Source: an uncultured Mycoplasmataceae bacterium | GTDB taxonomy: Bacteria > Bacillota_I > Bacilli_A > Mycoplasmatales > Hepatoplasmataceae | Length of the DNA: 37,620 nt | Direction: 5' to 3' | Assembly: GCA_947313745.1 (NCBI GenBank) | Contig: CAMZNG010000020.1 | Location: 1 to 37,620, forward strand | Shown here: one piece after another, positions 395-20,499 of the stretch | How the letters are laid out: each line of letters starts with the position of its first letter | Position numbering within the stretch: position 1 is the stretch's first letter | Made by a program: the position numbers and the translations under genes | The notes under the pieces: generated by a model | What the model saw: only the letters and a program-made list of their open reading frames with translations | What the model was told of the DNA's origin: nothing | Database searches by the model: none

Positions 395-1805
395 TTAGAT
401 TGTCTTTTGAGTTAAACTCTTCTATTGATATATTATCTTTAAGGATTATTTTATCATTATCCATAAATAAACCAACTAATCCTTTGTGTGATTTTTTGTT
501 AGGATTTGTAATTGGATCTTTTTCCATTGACATTCTCTTTCCATCAATAACTATACTCGTTGCTTTAAATACAAATCCAAAAGTATCTCTATTATTATTT
601 TGATAAAGCGTTGCCCCTAACCCAAAGACAATATTTTCTGTTGAATATCCTAAATTCTCGATTCCTTTGAGCAAGTCTTGAATAGTATCGAAATTCATTG
701 AATCTCCATATATAAGTCCAACCTTATTATTTATAACTTTATATCCTTTTGAATTTATTGTTGATCCAAAATGCTTATCAAGCAATCTTAAAACACCTTG
801 TTTTTCAAGTTTGTTTTTTGATTTTTTATTTCCACAAACAATTTTCAACGGATCTCCTGAATCAGGTCTTATTACTAATTTACCATCCCTATTTTCAATT
901 TCTTTCTTTAAAGATGGAATAATTGAATCTAACACATTCCATAGATCCCATGTGTCTGAAACTATTGATAATAATCCTTTGGGATATGATTCAATTAATT
1001 TTTTATAAGCATCTTTTTCCTTTTCTTTTCCAAAGGACATCATAACAGAATGTTCAGTGGCTGGAACCGATGTCCCCAGTCTCCCAAAATGCTTCTCAAA
1101 CTCAACTATTGAAGTTAGTGTTGATGATCCCTGGAAATTAGCCAAATGACCTATCCCACTTAGCAATCCTGATTCACTACCTGACATACCCCTATAAGAA
1201 AAGTCTGTTCCTTGATAAAATGAAAAATCTTTATTGTCAGAAGTTTTTTCTAATCATTCATCAAAAATTTTTTTAAGATTATATGAAATCGTTGCAGAGG
1301 TAACAAGCGGTCAGACACAAGTTAATAAATATGATTCTATATAGTTTGTCATTCAAAAAAATTTTTGATCATTATTATAGATATTAATTATTGGAAATCC
1401 TATTGGTACTATAGTCCCATCATCAACTACCTTTATTTCTAAAGGTAGTTTCTTATTTTCTCAAAGATCATAAAATCTTTTAATATTGTATGAATCAAAA
1501 TTATGATATTTTATATTGAATTTCTCAAACTTTTCTAATACATCAGTCACTTCTTTTTTTGTTAAAGAAAAAAATATATCTCATTCATTTATAATTTTTT
1601 TCTTTATATAATTAAGTCCAAATACATAAATGTTATCCTTTATGTATTTATGATTTGATTTTCTTGTAGATAAATTTGAATAAATAAATTCTGTTTTATT
1701 TGGATATTGGTCTGCATGAACTAATTTATATCCATCAGTTTTTATCAAAATATCAAATGCTAATTCTTTTTTTGTTTTCATTTTCCTTATATATTGATTA
1801 TACAT
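387..1805 (-). CDS. nadV: Nicotinamide phosphoribosyltransferase (NAMPT/NadV type)
   Basis: The 472-residue product should make nicotinamide mononucleotide from nicotinamide and PRPP, the first step of NAD salvage. Family motifs appear in order: ILIKTDGYKLVHADQYP near the N terminus, TDFSYRGMSGSESG (NAMPT has DFGxRGVSS), VPATEHSVM, VIRPDSGDPL, GLIYGDSMN and DPITNPNKKSHKG. The EHS and RPDSG motifs fit NAMPT better than the nicotinate enzyme PncB. Several Trp residues are TGA codons. The start is uncertain: the first ATG (1805) has no Shine-Dalgarno, while Met9 (1781) has AAGGA very close upstream. The gene lies 18 nt downstream of mutM on the same strand and is probably co-transcribed with it. 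Using nicotinamide directly would let the cell skip the deamidase step. Confidence 0.88.
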
Positions 1806-1823
1806 TATATAAATTAATGCAAA

Positions 1824-2648
1824 TTATTTTGATTGACAATTTTCACAAAAAAATGTTCCTCTTCCACCAACGACTATTTTTGTTATTGTTGAATTACAAT
1901 CATAGCATTTCTCACCTTTTCTTTGATGAACCTTTAGATTTGATTGGTTTGTTCCTTTGACCCCCAATTGTGAAGTGAAACTTTTTATTGTAGTGCCTTT
2001 ATTTTTTATTGCAATATTAAAAATATTAATTGAGTTTTTTACAATTTCATTTACATCTTTTTTTGTTATATTAACCCCTTTTTTCTCAGGATGAATTTTT
2101 GTTGAAAATAACACTTCATCTACATAAATGTTTCCTAATCCAGAGATTATTGTTTGATCTAATAAAATAGTTTTAATATTGACATTCTTTTTCTTTATTT
2201 TTTTAAAGAGTAAATCAATGTCAATGTCAAATGGTTCGTTTGCAATTTTTGATAAAATGTCATTTTCTTCATAAGTGATGTCATTTGAAAATAAATCAAT
2301 TGTTGCAAACCTTCTAAAATCATTAAAAATAATTATGTTATTATTGGTTTCGATCTTTAAAATCATATGTTTATCATTCAAGTCAATTTGATCGTTGATT
2401 TTATATACATAAAATCTTCCTTCCATTCTTAAGTGAATAATAAGATAATTATTTGTAAACTTTATAATTAGATGTTTGGCTTTTCTATCAATTGATATTA
2501 TCTCTTGGTTAATCAAGACTTCTAAATCGCTTTTAGAAGAGTTTCTTAAATTCTTTAAATATTGTAATTTAATATTTTTTACTTTATCATTTATGATTTT
2601 ATTTTCTAGTGATCTTCTAACTGTTTCAACTTCGGGCAATTCTGGCAT
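1824..2648 (-). CDS. mutM: Formamidopyrimidine-DNA glycosylase (Fpg/MutM)
   Basis: This 274-residue bifunctional glycosylase/AP lyase removes 8-oxoguanine and formamidopyrimidines in base excision repair. The start is chosen at the ATG giving MPELPEVETVRRSL, because Pro2 is the catalytic nucleophile and Glu3 is also catalytic. A longer frame upstream would bury that proline. TAGGAGA lies 5 nt before the chosen ATG. Lys in the KAKHLII segment corresponds to the conserved beta-turn lysine. The C terminus carries the zinc finger, with Cys pairs CYDC and CENC spaced 16 residues apart, and the GGRGTFFC segment typical of Fpg. Family length is about 270-280, so it is complete. It contains no UGA codon. 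nadV follows 18 nt downstream. Confidence 0.96.
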   Translation of the reverse strand: MPELPEVETVRRSLENKIINDKVKNIKLQYLKNLRNSSKSDLEVLINQEIISIDRKAKHLIIKFTNNYLIIHLRMEGRFYVYKINDQIDLNDKHMILKIETNNNIIIFNDFRRFATIDLFSNDITYEENDILSKIANEPFDIDIDLLFKKIKKKNVNIKTILLDQTIISGLGNIYVDEVLFSTKIHPEKKGVNITKKDVNEIVKNSINIFNIAIKNKGTTIKSFTSQLGVKGTNQSNLKVHQRKGEKCYDCNSTITKIVVGGRGTFFCENCQSK

Positions 2649-2728
2649 AATATCTCCTAATAAAATGATACATAAAAAAACAAATACCCATATGAGCATT
2701 TGCCTTATTAATTATATTAATTTAATAA

Positions 2729-2878
2729 TTATTCAACTAATTCAAGTTTACCTTGGTGAATCATTGCTTTCATATATGAATTATGAGTGTCTTCGATTAC
2801 TTCACCTGGTTGATATTCTTTATTTCTTCATTCCATAGTTTTAAGAACTTTGAATTGAAATTTTTGATTGTTATCCAT
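2729..2878 (-). CDS. 49-residue protein of unknown function, phage-like small protein
   Basis: A short frame starts at ATG (MDNNQKFQFKVLKTMEW) with AAGGAT upstream and contains one in-frame TGA (Trp17). The pattern FKVLKTxxxxxxxYxPGEVIE...KAMIHQGKLE resembles many small phage and plasmid proteins that begin with a KVLKxF strand, have a YxxGDxxE turn and end in a short helix with GxIE. No function is known to me. It sits between the ArdC-like metallopeptidase and mutM with about 80 nt of free sequence on each side, unlike the tightly packed neighbours. A -10-like element and a small hairpin precede it, so it may have its own promoter. That it is coding is inferred from the frame, the ribosome site and the Trp TGA. 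Confidence 0.6.
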
Positions 2879-2891
2879 TTTTATCCTTTAT

Positions 2892-2938
2892 GTAATTGGT
2901 TGCCATATTCAAAAAGGTAACCTAAATTAATTATATAT
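2892..2938 (-). promoter_or_regulatory. Putative promoter and leader hairpin of the 49-residue gene
   Basis: On the minus strand a TATATATAATTAAT stretch (about 2927-2940) could supply a -10 element. Just after it, GGTTACC (2916-2922) can pair with GGCAACC (2898-2904) as a 7-bp stem with one G-T wobble and an 11-nt loop. The Shine-Dalgarno AAGGAT follows before the ATG at 2878. There is no T-run directly after the stem, so a leader structure is more likely than a terminator. The assignment is weak because the region is extremely AT-rich. Confidence 0.3.
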
Positions 2939-2956
2939 ATAAAAAAAGGAAAAACA

Positions 2957-3556
2957 CTAATTAAAACCACTATTTTTTAAAATTATTTTTGATATGAATT
3001 CATAAGAGTTATTTATTTGTTTTCACATCTCAATAATTTTTTTATCAGAGAATTTTGCATTTTTGATTCACCTTTCAATATATTCTTCTTGTTTCCACTT
3101 GTAATTTGAAGGTAAATCTCTTGCTTTTATACCTCCAACAAAAGAGTATAGCAATGATTGAGCAACTGTTTCTGCCACATATTCCTTTTGTGGAGTAGAT
3201 AGTTTTATCTTGTTTAACTCTTGATTGTTATGGTTATTTACTAAGTGGGTTAATTCATGAAAGTAAACATGAACTTGATTTATAAAGTTTATGTCTTTTC
3301 TTATTTTTAAATTCCTAGATAATATTTTTATTTCTCCTAAACTAGTTCTAATCTTCTTTTGAGTAAGTGCTCCCTCTCTAGAGTTTCCTCTTCTTTCAAA
3401 TTTGAACTGCGTATTAAAAAAATCTAATATTTCTAATGTGTGAGGAAGCAAACTTGTTTCAAAGGATTCATAATCATTTAAATAGTTAAAGTATATTTCC
3501 TTTGTAGAAATATATTTTTTGTATCTATCCAAAAGAATTCTTGTTCTATTTTCCAT
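2957..3556 (-). CDS. ArdC-like zinc metallopeptidase domain protein
   Basis: The frame gives 199 residues with two in-frame TGA (Trp) codons near the C terminus. A zincin motif, FHELTHLVNN (HExxH), is followed about 30 residues later by KEYVAETVAQSLL, whose Glu would be the third zinc ligand. Further on come YIERWIKN and a helix ending NNSYEFI. This order (HELxH, then YxxEExVAE, then YIxxWL, then a final I-rich helix) is that of the C-terminal metallopeptidase domain of ArdC-type antirestriction proteins from plasmids and phages. The N-terminal ssDNA-binding ArdC domain is absent; instead there are about 100 unrecognised residues. The gene starts 7 nt after rsgA. Its role is unknown; it could be a domesticated mobile-element protease. 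An ImmA/IrrE-type protease is the main alternative. Confidence 0.6.
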
Positions 3557-3563
3557 TTTTGTT

Positions 3564-4427
3564 TTAATCTAATTCCTCTAATAATTTTTTATAGTTAATC
3601 ATTGTTCTTTCAGAATATGTTTGTTTTTTTATATTGCATCCTTTTTCATTGCTATGTTGACAATTATTAAATTTACAATTATTTGCAAATTGTTCAAAAT
3701 TGAAAAAATTTCAACATATTAAGCTCTTATCTAATTCTTTTATGTCTAATGATGAAAAACCTGGTGTATCAACAATATATGAGTTAGGGAAAATTTCAAA
3801 GGCTTCTGAATGTCTTGTTGTATGTTTTCCTCTTCCTAAAACCTTAGATATTTCACCTGTTTTTAAATTAAATTTATCATTTAAAAAATTCAATAAAGTT
3901 GATTTCCCCACTCCTGTTTGCCCAGTGATGATTGATAATTTATCTTTTGTTCAATTTTTAAGATTAACCATCTCTTCTTTTTCTAGTGATTTTCCATAAG
4001 TAATAATCACCTTAAAATTAGCATCTTTATACTCATCAATTATTTTCTTATGATCTTTTGAAATTCCTAAATCTCCTTTTGTAAAAATTAATATAGGCTT
4101 AATACTTCTTGATTGAAATATAGTTATCAACTTATCTAAATAATAATCATTTAAATTCGGTTCAGTGATTGAAGTAACAAGTATTACATTATCGACATTT
4201 GATATGTTAGGTCTTTGAAATTCATTTTTTCTTTCAAATAATTTTGTTATTGTATTTAATTCTTCTCTTCCGGTTTTATTCTCATTAACTTGAATTTCAA
4301 CAATATCTCCAACAATTATTTTAATATTAGATTTTCTAAAAATACCTAAAGGTTTAGCATTAAAAGTATCATTTTTAACTAATACTCTATAATTTCCTCC
4401 TGATGAATAAATTACTCTGCCTATCAT
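3564..4427 (-). CDS. rsgA: Ribosome small-subunit-dependent GTPase RsgA
   Basis: This 287-residue protein acts late in 30S ribosomal subunit maturation, hydrolysing GTP on the ribosome. It begins with an OB-fold ([17 protein letters not shown]). The GTPase is circularly permuted, as in the YlqF/YawG group: G4 (FTKGD) comes first, then G1 (GQTGVGKST), then G3 (DTPGFSS). The C terminus has the zinc site, with C, C, H and C in the segment [15 protein letters not shown]. Two Trp codons are TGA, which split the apparent frame. It lies downstream of the kinase and phosphatase genes, a neighbourhood also found in other mollicutes and firmicutes, where RsgA is a known substrate of PrkC-type kinases. 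Length and all motifs are complete. Confidence 0.95.
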
Positions 4428-10348: not shown

Positions 10349-11342
10349 AAAAGAAAGAATTGTTACAGGAATTACAGCAACTGGGAAATTAACCCTTGGG
10401 AATTACATTGGAGCTATAAAAAATTTAATCGAATATCAAAACTCTAATAATTATGATATCTATATGTTTGTCGCTGATTTACATGCCCTATCATTACCAA
10501 TAGATCCTGATGAATTAAGAAAAAACATTAAGGAACAATTATCGTTATATATTGCTTGTGGAATTGATTATAAGAAAACAAAATTGTTTAAGCAATCAGA
10601 AATCATTGGACATTCAGATATATTCTATTATTTAACAGTAATATCTAATGAAGGTCAATTGAAAAGAATGACACAATATAAAGATAAAGCACAAAAAAAC
10701 GCAAATAAAACAGAGCAAATTCCCCTAGGGTTATTAATGTATCCTATTCTAATGGCTGGAGATATATTAATTTATAATGCTGATGGTGTTATTGTTGGAC
10801 AAGATCAAAAACAACATTTAGAATTAACAAGAGATCTTGCAGAAAGATTACTAAAAAAATATAAGGTTGATATTAAAATACCTAATCCCATAATTGCAAA
10901 AGAAGGTGCAAAAATAATGGCATTGAAAACACCAACAAAAAAAATGTCTAAATCAGATAAAGATATTGGTGAAACTATTTTCTTATTAGATGATGAGGAA
11001 ACAATTAGAAAGAAAATAAAAACTTCATTAACTGATTCAGAAAATAAAGTATATTATGATATAGAAAAAAAACCTGGAGTTTCAAATCTTATTACAATAT
11101 ATTCTTCAATAAAAAATATATCAATTAAAGAAGCATCAGAATCCCTTAAAGATGAGAACTATAAAAACTTTAAAGAAATTATTGCAAACGAAATAATCAA
11201 GTTGCTAAAACCAATTCAAGATAAATACTTTTCCTTAAAAGAAAAAGATATTGATGAAGCAATAAATTATAATAAAAAGGAAATTCAGTCAACTGCTAAT
11301 GAAATGATTGAAAAAATAAAGAAAGGGTTTGGATTAAATTAA
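10320..11342 (+). CDS. trpS: Tryptophanyl-tRNA synthetase (itself free of Trp)
   Basis: This class I synthetase charges tRNA-Trp. Here that includes the UGA-reading tRNA-Trp(UCA) encoded in the same window. The product is 340 residues from 10320, or 334 from Met7 at 10338; the latter gives the family-like start MKNKKERIVTGI and is the likelier one. Motifs: TGKLTLGNYIGA (HIGH-type), VADLHALSLP, the tryptophan/ATP site YPILMAGDILIYNAD, VGQDQKQHLE, and KKMSKS. The frame contains neither UGA nor UGG, so the enzyme has no tryptophan. The start overlaps the end of RNase J, implying coupling, and the HAD gene starts directly after the stop. Confidence 0.96.
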   Translation: MVKKPKMKNKKERIVTGITATGKLTLGNYIGAIKNLIEYQNSNNYDIYMFVADLHALSLPIDPDELRKNIKEQLSLYIACGIDYKKTKLFKQSEIIGHSDIFYYLTVISNEGQLKRMTQYKDKAQKNANKTEQIPLGLLMYPILMAGDILIYNADGVIVGQDQKQHLELTRDLAERLLKKYKVDIKIPNPIIAKEGAKIMALKTPTKKMSKSDKDIGETIFLLDDEETIRKKIKTSLTDSENKVYYDIEKKPGVSNLITIYSSIKNISIKEASESLKDENYKNFKEIIANEIIKLLKPIQDKYFSLKEKDIDEAINYNKKEIQSTANEMIEKIKKGFGLN

Positions 11343-17292: not shown

Positions 17293-17369
17293 TGGCAGGA
17301 GTGACAGGAATCGAACCCGTAACCGATGGTTTTGAAGACCACTGCTCTGCCTAATTGAGCTACACTCCT
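17293..17369 (-). tRNA. trnW: tRNA-Trp (anticodon UCA), reads UGA
   Basis: The minus strand folds as a full cloverleaf. The acceptor AGGAGTG pairs with CACTCCT, with discriminator G and an encoded CCA. The T arm is CGGGTTCGATTCCTG-like, and the anticodon stem GTGGT/ACCAT encloses the loop CTTCAAA, giving anticodon UCA. This is the tRNA that lets mollicutes decode UGA as tryptophan, in line with the many in-frame TGA codons here. It lies 15 nt downstream of acpP, probably at the end of the same transcript. Confidence 0.95.
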
Positions 17370-17384
17370 ATAAATAAATTTAGA

Positions 17385-17606
17385 TTATAACTTTGTTGAA
17401 ACGCTATCGACAATGTCTTTAACTGTTTTTATCTCAAGCAATTTACTATCATCAATAGTAATTTTATATTTCTTTTCAACATCAACCATTAAATCTAATA
17501 AGTCTAGTGAATCTATCCCTAATTCTGATATTTTTGTATCAAGTTTTACATCTATCTTATATTTTGATTTAATGACCTTTTTTACTTCTTCGAATATTTT
17601 TTCCAT
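17385..17606 (-). CDS. acpP: Acyl carrier protein
   Basis: The 73-residue acidic helical protein carries acyl chains on a phosphopantetheine arm. The attachment motif GIDSLDLLDLM is present, with the modified serine at position 33. The surrounding sequence (FEEVKKVIKSKYKID ... KYKITIDDSKLLEIKTVKDIVD) follows the four-helix ACP pattern at the usual length. Mollicutes lack full fatty acid synthesis, so it more likely serves acyl transfer to phospholipids and links to the DegV-based lipid supply in this window. CoaD in the same window helps make the CoA that donates its prosthetic group. The gene starts 2 nt after the preceding stop. Confidence 0.95.
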   Translation of the reverse strand: MEKIFEEVKKVIKSKYKIDVKLDTKISELGIDSLDLLDLMVDVEKKYKITIDDSKLLEIKTVKDIVDSVSTKL

Positions 17607-17608
17607 AA

Positions 17609-17971
17609 TTACATTATACCAATAAAATTATCAATTAATTGAAAGGAATAATTTTTTCTTTGGTTGTTTGCTTTCACTAAAATATCAATATTATTATGAG
17701 AATTCCTTGATGAATAAGTAATATCATCTTTTTTTATCCCTTGTTTTTTTAAAGAGTTTTCAATGTCGTTTTCAAAGGAAAGCATAAATTTTTCTGAATT
17801 AAATTCACCTCTATATCCATTAATAGTTTTATCTAAATTTTCTGTATTTATTACTGGCCAAACGATTTCTTTTTTTCCAATTTTAAAACCACTCAAGAAA
17901 TACATTAATAATGAAATTATTATAGAAATAAGAAATGTAATAATTACAAAAACTTTTGTTTTTTTACTCAT
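17609..17971 (-). CDS. Single-pass membrane protein of unknown function (120 aa)
   Basis: The product begins MSKKTKVFVIITFLISI, with a transmembrane helix at about 7-27 and no lipobox cysteine. About 90 polar residues follow, probably outside the cell or in the membrane-proximal space. I do not recognise a family. AAGGAGATTAATA precedes the ATG, and the start overlaps the end of the 357-residue upstream gene by 8 bp, so the two are translated together and may form a pair. The acyl carrier protein gene follows after 2 nt. It contains only UGG-encoded Trp. Confidence 0.7.
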   Translation of the reverse strand: MSKKTKVFVIITFLISIIISLLMYFLSGFKIGKKEIVWPVINTENLDKTINGYRGEFNSEKFMLSFENDIENSLKKQGIKKDDITYSSRNSHNNIDILVKANNQRKNYSFQLIDNFIGIM

Positions 17972-19037
17972 TATTAATCTCCTTGAAAAAGTATTCTCCT
18001 TCTTTCCCTCTTAAAGGTTTTTTATTTCCTAAGTTAAGTTCAAAATCTATGTTGTATTCTTGATATGTTTTTATATCAATAGAAAAAAATAATTTTCCTT
18101 TGTTATCAAGTTCATCCCAAGGCATAACAATTCCTTCCTCATTAAGATAGTTCTCATTTGTTCCGGCAATTACTTTTTTCTTTTTTTCATCATAATAAAA
18201 TTTATCATTTGTTTCATAAAACGATCTGTCGGAACCTTCTTCTTCATTAAGAGTTAAGTTTATTTTTTGTTTATCAATGTATCCATCAAAATACATAGAT
18301 GCAACTATATTTTTTGGAATTGTTCAATTATAATGGTTAAGATCATCATCGTATTCTAATGACATTACATCATTAATTGTTTTAGGATATTTAAATTGAT
18401 TAACAAACATTTTATTAAAAGTTAATGTTTCAAAAATTACCTCATTATTGTTGATTCCTATTGGACTAACTATTTTTTCTGTGTTAGAATTTTCAAAGTT
18501 TATGTCATAATCAATCTTATTACTAGTGTTTAAATTTATAACTTCAGATAAATCGCTTGAAATATTTTTAGAATCTTTAGAGATAAAACGAATATTTGTA
18601 TTTGATAAACTAACATTATCATCAATATCTAGATGATAAACCATATCATCAGTATCATCATTAGACAAAAAATTAAATGTATCTAATAATTCATCATTAA
18701 CAAAGACTTCTATGGTTTCATCTAATTGACAACTGATTTTTTCATAATCATTTTCCCCTTCTTTTTTAAGATAGAAAAACTTATTATCAATTGTGAAATC
18801 TAAAGATAAATATCCCGTAATAAAATTTCTTTTTGCAGAAATAAGATTAAAATCAATTCTATCTTTGTTGAAGGATGGTAATTTATTGTAAGAAAGAGCT
18901 AAATGAGGGTTTTCAGGATCGTATCAATAATAATATGGTTGTGTATCACCATCTATTAAAACACCCTTTCCTTGATAGGTTGTATCTTTATCTACAACAA
19001 TATCTCCAACATTATTTGCTTCATAATAACTAAAAAT
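17964..19037 (-). CDS. 357-residue acidic protein of unknown function, apparent AUU start
   Basis: The frame is open from a TAA at 19062-19064 down to the stop at 17964 and includes in-frame TGA codons at plausible Trp positions (YYYWY and NHYNW). No ATG, GTG or TTG occurs in the first ~120 codons. A perfect Shine-Dalgarno, AAGGAGG (19044-19050), lies 6 nt before ATT at 19035-19037, which I take as the start. The protein is rich in Asp, Asn, Glu and Tyr, looks beta-rich, and has no signal peptide, membrane segment or lipobox. No family is recognised. It lies 46 nt after proS and overlaps the following membrane protein gene by 8 bp. A lost 5' end cannot be excluded. Confidence 0.65.
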
Positions 19038-19065
19038 AATATACCTCCTTATGAAGGTATATTAT
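19035..19065 (-). promoter_or_regulatory. Hairpin enclosing Shine-Dalgarno and AUU start
   Basis: On the minus strand ATAATATACCT (19055-19065) pairs perfectly with AGGTATATTAT (19036-19046) across the 8-nt loop TCATAAGG. The downstream arm contains the last part of AAGGAGG and two bases of the ATT start; the rest of the ribosome site is in the loop. The structure would limit access of ribosomes to the 357-residue gene. It is followed by TTTTT, so a weak terminator after proS is the alternative, but the stem has only two G-C pairs. Confidence 0.5.
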
Positions 19066-19083
19066 CTTTTAAATCTCTTTTTT

Positions 19084-20499
19084 CTAATATGATCTAGCAA
19101 AAATTGCAATTTGGTTTGTAACTTTATTTGATGAAATTGATTTTCCTTCTTTTTTAGATTTTATTAAACATCTTATTGTTGCGCCAGTACTTTCTTTTAT
19201 TTCTTTTTCTTTTTCTAAATCTTCAGTTCAATATGCAACACCATATTTTCCTTTATTTACAATTTCTTTAATTTGTGAAATTGATGTAAATTCTACTTTC
19301 TTCTCTTCTTTAAGTTTCTTTGCATTCTCATAAATCTTATCATCATGTTTTTTTATCAAATCTTTTATTAAAGAATTATTAACTTCATTTGAGTTATATT
19401 GTATTTTTTCTGAAAAATTCCTTATTGAGATTGTAACATTATTATTTTCAATATCTCTTGGACCAATTTCAATTCTTATAGGAGCACCCTTGAGTTCTCA
19501 TTCTTGAGATTTAAAACCAATACCTTTATTTGAATCGTCAATTTTTACCCTAAAATTTAAATCTTTTGATAATTTTTTTGCAAGTTCAAGAACTCTCTTT
19601 TCTTTATCGGAAAACAAAGTCATAATTACAATTTGAACTGGTGCAATTTTAGAAGGTAATATTAATCCCTTGTCATCTGAATGTGTCATAATAACAGCTC
19701 CTATCAACCTTGTTGAAACACCTCATGATGTTTGGAAAGGATTATATTTTTTATTGTCTTTTCCTTGTACCCTTACATTAAATGCCTTTGTAAATTTATC
19801 TCCAAGATAATGTGAAGTTCCAGATTGCAATGCTTGTCCATCTTTTAAAATAGTTTCAATTGTATATGTATTTTTTGCTCCTGCAAACCTTTCATTAATT
19901 GTTTTCTCACCTGTTATAACAGGAATTAATAATGTATTATTAGCAAAATTCTCATATACTTTTAAAATTTCTTTTGAGAAGTTATGTGCCTCTTTTTCTT
20001 GGGTATGTACAGTATGCCCCTCTTGTCAAAAGAACTCTGAATTTCTTAAAAAGGGTCTTGTGTTATTTTCTCATCTCATAATGTTAACTCATTGATTTAA
20101 CTTCATAGGTAATTGTGAGTATGAGTTTAAATTTTCTTCAAAAAATTTTCCAAATAATGTTTCTGATGTTGGTCTAATAACCAATTCTTCATCCAATTTT
20201 TTTTCACCAATTTTTGTTACTGTAAATATTTCTGGCGCAAAACCTTCTATATGTTCTTTTTCCTTTGTAAGAAATGATTTAGGAAGTAGTAATGGGAATT
20301 GAACTTCCTCAACTTCCAATTTATCAAATTCATTATCAAGTATATTCTTTATATTTTTTCATATTGAAAAACCATGAGGTTTTAAAAACATAGTCCCCTT
20401 TACAGGCCCATATGACATTAGTCCCGATTGTAAAACAAGATCTGAATATCATTTTGTGATATCTTCATTAAATGGTGTTATTTTATTTTTTTTATTCAT
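19084..20499 (-). CDS. proS: Prolyl-tRNA synthetase (short, eukaryote/archaeon-like type)
   Basis: The 471-residue class II synthetase charges tRNA-Pro. It starts MNKKNKITPFNEDITKWYSDL and lacks the editing insertion of the long bacterial ProRS. Motifs: GLMSYGPVKGTMFLKPHGF, VQFPLLLPKSFL, IRPTSET (motif 2 region), [22 protein letters not shown], and RLIGAVIMTHSDDKGLILP. The anticodon-binding domain follows and the protein ends in FARSY, typical of this type, which usually ends in a Tyr. Trp residues are mostly TGA, so the apparent frame is cut into pieces. phoU lies 15 nt upstream; the 357-residue unknown gene follows after 46 nt. Confidence 0.94.

Follow-up and report, generated by a model that had tools for sequence, protein, structure and literature searches.

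An apparent AUU start codon within a terminator-like hairpin downstream of proS in an uncultured Hepatoplasmataceae bacterium

Noncanonical starts and masked initiation regions in other bacteria

IF3 autocontrol of infC acts at an AUU start codon in Escherichia coli and at an AUA in Staphylococcus aureus. The gene described here, designated the AUU gene, likewise appears to carry an IF3-discriminated start behind a Shine-Dalgarno (SD) sequence. In contrast to infC, however, its AUU is not conserved, and since its product is not a translation factor, any effect of IF3 would be regulation in trans rather than feedback. Precedents outside infC are E. coli pcnB (AUU) and S. aureus cvfC1 (AUU) and ccpN (AUA), which are held low by an AUU or AUA codon behind a strong SD (PMC13009471). 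Ribo-Ret mapped the starts of cvfC1 and ccpN, which are also conserved (PMC13009471), whereas the start of the AUU gene is species-specific, is read from the sequence and has its SD inside a hairpin. A noncanonical start also sets protein dosage in Streptomyces sigR, where IF3 represses initiation at GTC (PMC5472188); the codon is a different one, and IF3 repression was tested in sigR, whereas the AUU gene is known from sequence alone.

A terminator and SD masking likewise occur together in the read-through RNA of the Bacillus subtilis vmlR attenuator (PMC9226507). vmlR relies on a pair of distinct hairpins together with an antiterminator and a uORF that acts as sensor; no such elements are seen at the AUU gene, where one hairpin would do both jobs. 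An AUU start whose SD lies in a terminator-like hairpin is a credible arrangement, unusual in its own genome and composed of devices each known from other bacteria.

The AUU gene is located in a 695-kb draft genome (24 contigs, 83% complete), and the window, that is, the whole stretch of DNA that was analysed, is one entire contig of 37,620 bases. The organism, an uncultured, mycoplasma-related gut bacterium, is a member of the Hepatoplasmataceae, a family of mollicutes living in crustacean guts (PMC10928387). Genetic code table 4 (TGA = Trp) was used throughout. Comparisons were made with nine relatives from the family, two of the same genus (G001 and G002) and seven others. Genome-wide statistics come from a sample of the window and ten further stretches, 205 kb in total, and are rough because the gene calls are simple ORF calls. 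A scan of genome contigs with the AUU-gene protein and an exact-pattern search of viral contigs returned no conspecific sequence, nor did proS as a query, which matched nothing beyond Ca. Hepatoplasma crinochetorum Ps and one distant MAG with the label Rickettsiales.

The gene downstream of proS and its start codon

The frame of the AUU gene is open from stop to stop over 17964-19061 on the minus strand, comprising 365 codons after an in-frame TAA (Table 1) and including two TGA codons read as Trp. The first ATG, GTG or TTG in this frame is the TTG at 18668, 123 codons past ATT 19037, in agreement with the approximately 120 codons given in the preliminary description, which had also reported the bounding TAA and the Trp-coding TGA. 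Only one other of 163 non-overlapping ORFs in the 205-kb sample has more codons ahead of its canonical start, and that ORF continues a frame broken by TAA stops; the absence of a canonical start in the AUU gene is therefore unusual. Gene order and strand suggest that the gene is co-transcribed with proS and acpP. Also on the minus strand of the window, ARAGORN calls a tRNA-SeC (tca) at 17293-17369, which is probably tRNA-Trp(UCA), given that TGA encodes Trp.

Table 1. Features of the AUU gene, its initiation region and its neighbors (window coordinates)
Feature	Position	Strand	Basis or remark
Acyl carrier protein (acpP-like)	17385..17606	-	Pfam PF00550, E 8e-13
Small protein, one N-terminal transmembrane segment	17609..17971	-	ORF list; its ATG overlaps the 3′ end of the AUU gene
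AUU gene, 357 aa, TGA = Trp	17964..19037	-	Open frame, no canonical start for 123 codons; orthologues in relatives
First ATG past the hairpin, out of frame, 10-codon ORF only	19022..19024	-	Sequence
3′ arm of the stem, holding GGAGG, AUU and UUUUU end (terminator-like)	19032..19048	-	Fold and terminator scan
AUU, most likely start codon	19035..19037	-	6 nt past AAGGAGG; same context as the ATG of G004
Shine-Dalgarno AAGGAGG	19044..19050	-	Complementary to the CCTCCTT end of the organism's own 16S rRNA
5′ arm of the 17-bp stem	19053..19069	-	Fold and terminator scan
GATAAT, resembling a -10 hexamer, within the 5′ arm (internal promoter, speculative)	19061..19066	-	5/6 to TATAAT
In-frame TAA bounding the open frame	19062..19064	-	ORF analysis
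proS (prolyl-tRNA synthetase)	19084..20499	-	Pfam PF00587, PF03129, PF09180; stop codon 15 nt before the stem

The AUU-gene protein has no match in Pfam, NCBIfam, PDB or phage searches, and an AlphaFold2 model built on a two-row alignment (mean pLDDT 29) was set aside. Protein matches nevertheless identify orthologues in seven of the nine relatives; proS precedes the orthologue in every one, and wherever the contig reaches further (G002, G004, G005, G007, G008 and G009) the orthologue is followed by a small protein with one transmembrane segment. Sixteen columns are invariant over eight sequences, including P-W-D and L-R, and the family residues PWD, LR and YD are kept in the AUU gene. The AUU gene encodes an intact orthologue, in conserved gene order, of a protein specific to the Hepatoplasmataceae. 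G003 has a frame at the same place after proS that is related by position and resemblance only. In G006 this place is occupied by an unrelated 1280-residue membrane protein, permease-like by eye (534-4376, minus strand), which overlaps the end of proS.

The assignment of AUU 19037 as the start codon is well supported. The organism's own 16S rRNA ends in ...GGATCACCTCCTT, and the AAGGAGG of the AUU gene, found where it had first been noted, forms an SD:anti-SD duplex of -12.2 kcal/mol, the strongest among 169 sampled ORFs reaching -11.9, in a genome sample in which only about a third of the genes have a recognizable SD. The spacing of 6 nt falls within the genome's cluster of 4-9 nt. Further AAGGAGG-N-ATT sites elsewhere in the genome are pattern matches only. 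Other near-cognate codons have a weaker SD or none, and TTG 18668 is excluded in practice because homology begins well upstream of it. The G004 orthologue has its ATG at the same place, reading AAGGAGAAATT-ATG-TTT against AAGGAGGTATATT-ATT-TTT here, with LYE and SYYE as the next residues. If translation starts at AUU 19037, the N-terminal peptide would be MFSYYEANNVGDIVVDK.

A parallel is provided by infC, which from alignment appears to start at AUA (eight genomes) or AUU (one, G006) in the nine Hepatoplasmataceae genomes having infC, each time behind an SD and in most without a canonical start nearby. AUU initiation is therefore plausible in this lineage. Two traits, the lack of a usable canonical start and a strong SD at proper spacing, place the AUU gene with the IF3-discriminated-start genes; a noncanonical start kept in orthologues, a third mark of such genes, is absent here, as the relatives use ATG (G001, G002, G003, G004 and G009) or GTG (G005, G007 and G008). 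The AUU itself is found in this genome alone. The three GTG-starting orthologues, all from Hepatoplasma, have no SD, and a weak start thus recurs in the gene family.

Two doubts raised in the preliminary description can be addressed by the same alignment. It had considered a lost 5′ end, which is disfavored because the N-terminus is no shorter than the start-aligned G004, G008, G005 and G007 orthologues allow; those of the same genus, G001 and G002, are about 30 residues longer. It had also reasoned that an in-frame upstream ATG in orthologues would tell against the AUU. Relatives do have an ATG or GTG start that aligns with the AUU, but in the organism itself no such codon lies upstream of the AUU.

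The alternative that survives best, although we regard it as unlikely, is that the codon is truly, or was ancestrally, ATG and that one base was changed by a sequence error or an isolated mutation of the start codon. ATT is known from a single draft genome without a close relative, the aligned starts of relatives are ATG or GTG, and ATG to ATT is a single change. On the other hand, the frame is otherwise intact, the SD outranks all others sampled, as a weak start codon would need, and infC of the family appears to use AUU or AUA. If a single-base error or a recent mutation accounts for 19035, the case for AUU falls away and what is left is an ordinary terminator that overlaps an SD.

Elsewhere in the same genome (contig C1, 8439-11504, minus strand), two in-frame TAA codons, at 10380-10382 and 10917-10919, interrupt the reading frame for a repeat-rich protein that is probably surface-exposed; a pseudogene, repeat misassembly or read-through could explain them.

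The hairpin over the initiation region

The initiation region was described at first as an 11-bp perfect inverted repeat at 19035-19065 folding over the SD and ATT. A perfect core of this length is present at 19036-19065, but that interval covers the core only; the whole stem runs from 19069 to 19032 and has 17 bp, including two G-U pairs, a tetraloop AUAA and a predicted stability of -18.6 kcal/mol (z-score -5.0; none of 200 shuffles as stable). GGAGG and AUU are base-paired in the stem, and the first two A residues of the SD lie in the loop. The predicted fold of the start region showed this one strong structure. Its minimum free energy makes it the most stable of 165 sampled initiation regions (mean -3.9, sd 3.1, sampled minimum -15.0), and the stem ranks second in stability among 76 hairpins built from perfect stems in the genome sample.

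The hairpin is probably the intrinsic terminator of proS, a possibility that had been mentioned as an alternative and is a better reading than a regulatory stem. It starts 15 nt past the proS stop codon and ends in TTTTT, and a terminator scan of 4.2 kb found it as its single site, with 0.7 expected by chance. Most strong intergenic hairpins of the genome adjoin stop codons and have A and T flanks. Both sister species also have a hairpin after the proS stop, AAAAACATCATATAATATGATGTTTTTTT in G001, then a T-run, and AAAACATAATAATATGTTTT plus a T-run in G002. Neither has any sequence in common with the AUU-gene stem; what the species of the genus appear to share is thus where the hairpin sits and not its sequence, a pattern that a terminator would be expected to show. 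Outside the genus, a short stem over the proS stop followed by TTTTTTT can be drawn by eye in G004 and is missing from the computed fold, and G003, G005, G007, G008 and G009 have no hairpin after the proS stop. Against the terminator reading, the scan counts only three G-C pairs in the stem, which also contains most of the T-run, so that the hairpin may terminate poorly. An efficient terminator would also cut off acpP, which calls for high read-through or another promoter.

A slightly less probable alternative than a base change at the start codon is that the stem is a dedicated translational switch, which exists to hide the SD and AUU until opened by a signal such as temperature, a protein or the level of IF3. 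The extreme stability of the initiation region, the full pairing of GGAGG, an IF3-discriminated codon and the recurrence of weak starts in three Hepatoplasma orthologues would all fit. However, no orthologue retains the stem sequence or hides its SD; the SDs of G001 and G004 are open, ahead of the ATG. Both the AUU and the stem arms had been expected to be conserved, and neither is: the spacers of the nine genomes are unrelated and do not align, so that covariation, and with it compensatory pairs, cannot be counted. An Rfam search to E 1 found nothing at the hairpin (a tRNA alone scored above threshold), in the predicted fold the arms pair only with each other, and nothing at the hairpin points to a sensor, a ligand or a conserved switch. 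The suggestion that the AUU and stem set a low or condition-dependent expression accordingly survives in its first half: low expression is likely, and the unconserved arms, the Rfam result and the unrelated sister hairpins speak against a stem dedicated to conditional control.

Proposed mechanism and remaining alternatives

We favor, with some reserve, a reading in which an AUU start with a strong SD lies in a proS terminator that has fused with the initiation region, keeping expression low through masking and IF3. The spacer from the proS stop to the start is 46 nt here, compared with 102 and 61 nt in the sister species, where the SD, if present (G001), is situated well beyond the hairpin. 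These three species suggest that the spacer shrank in the present organism, such that the 3′ arm of the terminator came to double as the SD and start region of the AUU gene. Most proS transcripts would end at the hairpin or shortly beyond. In read-through mRNA, GGAGG and AUU would be paired in the stem and the SD masked; a terminating proS ribosome would hardly reach a stem that begins 15 nt past the proS stop. The unusually strong SD would place AUU 19037 in the P site of those ribosomes that do bind, and these would then initiate at an IF3-discriminated codon. Initiation would thus be limited twice, by masking and by IF3, and the protein is probably made at a low level. In S. aureus, an AUU or AUA start preceded by an extended SD yielded roughly 10% of what AUG gave (PMC13009471). 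Termination, in vivo masking, low expression and IF3 sensitivity are what we infer for the AUU gene from its arrangement.

Initiation elsewhere is improbable. AUU 19040 would have an SD duplex of -10.2, but it is just 3 nt from the SD. The ATG at 19024 lies downstream of the stem, but it is 19 nt from the SD and opens only 10 codons out of frame, and since no homopolymer occurs where a frameshift or indel error would be needed, a frameshift from this codon was rejected. There is a similarly slim chance that two mRNA forms exist, a nearly silent proS read-through and an RNA from an internal promoter starting at about 19054, which would lack the 5′ arm and expose the SD (unpaired in the predicted fold of such an RNA), the same bases then serving as terminator, promoter, SD and AUU start. 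The hexamer in the 5′ arm is of a kind found at 1.5% of positions, common in this AT-rich genome. The palindrome has near-perfect two-fold symmetry across 38 bp, but it is highly improbable that a repressor of the AUU gene uses it as a DNA operator: the only other hit in the genome is the palindrome matching its own complement at 84%, leaving no regulon, and it is not conserved in relatives.

If the AUU start and its fusion with the proS terminator are as proposed, gene finders limited to ATG, GTG and TTG would shorten the protein by about a third or miss it, and the gene would offer a simple test case for IF3 control of a non-translation gene. The case also suggests that AUU and AUA starts outside infC, recently mapped in S. 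aureus, may occur in mollicutes too, and that shrinking intergenic space can leave a single hairpin to mark the end of one gene while forming the initiation region of its neighbor.
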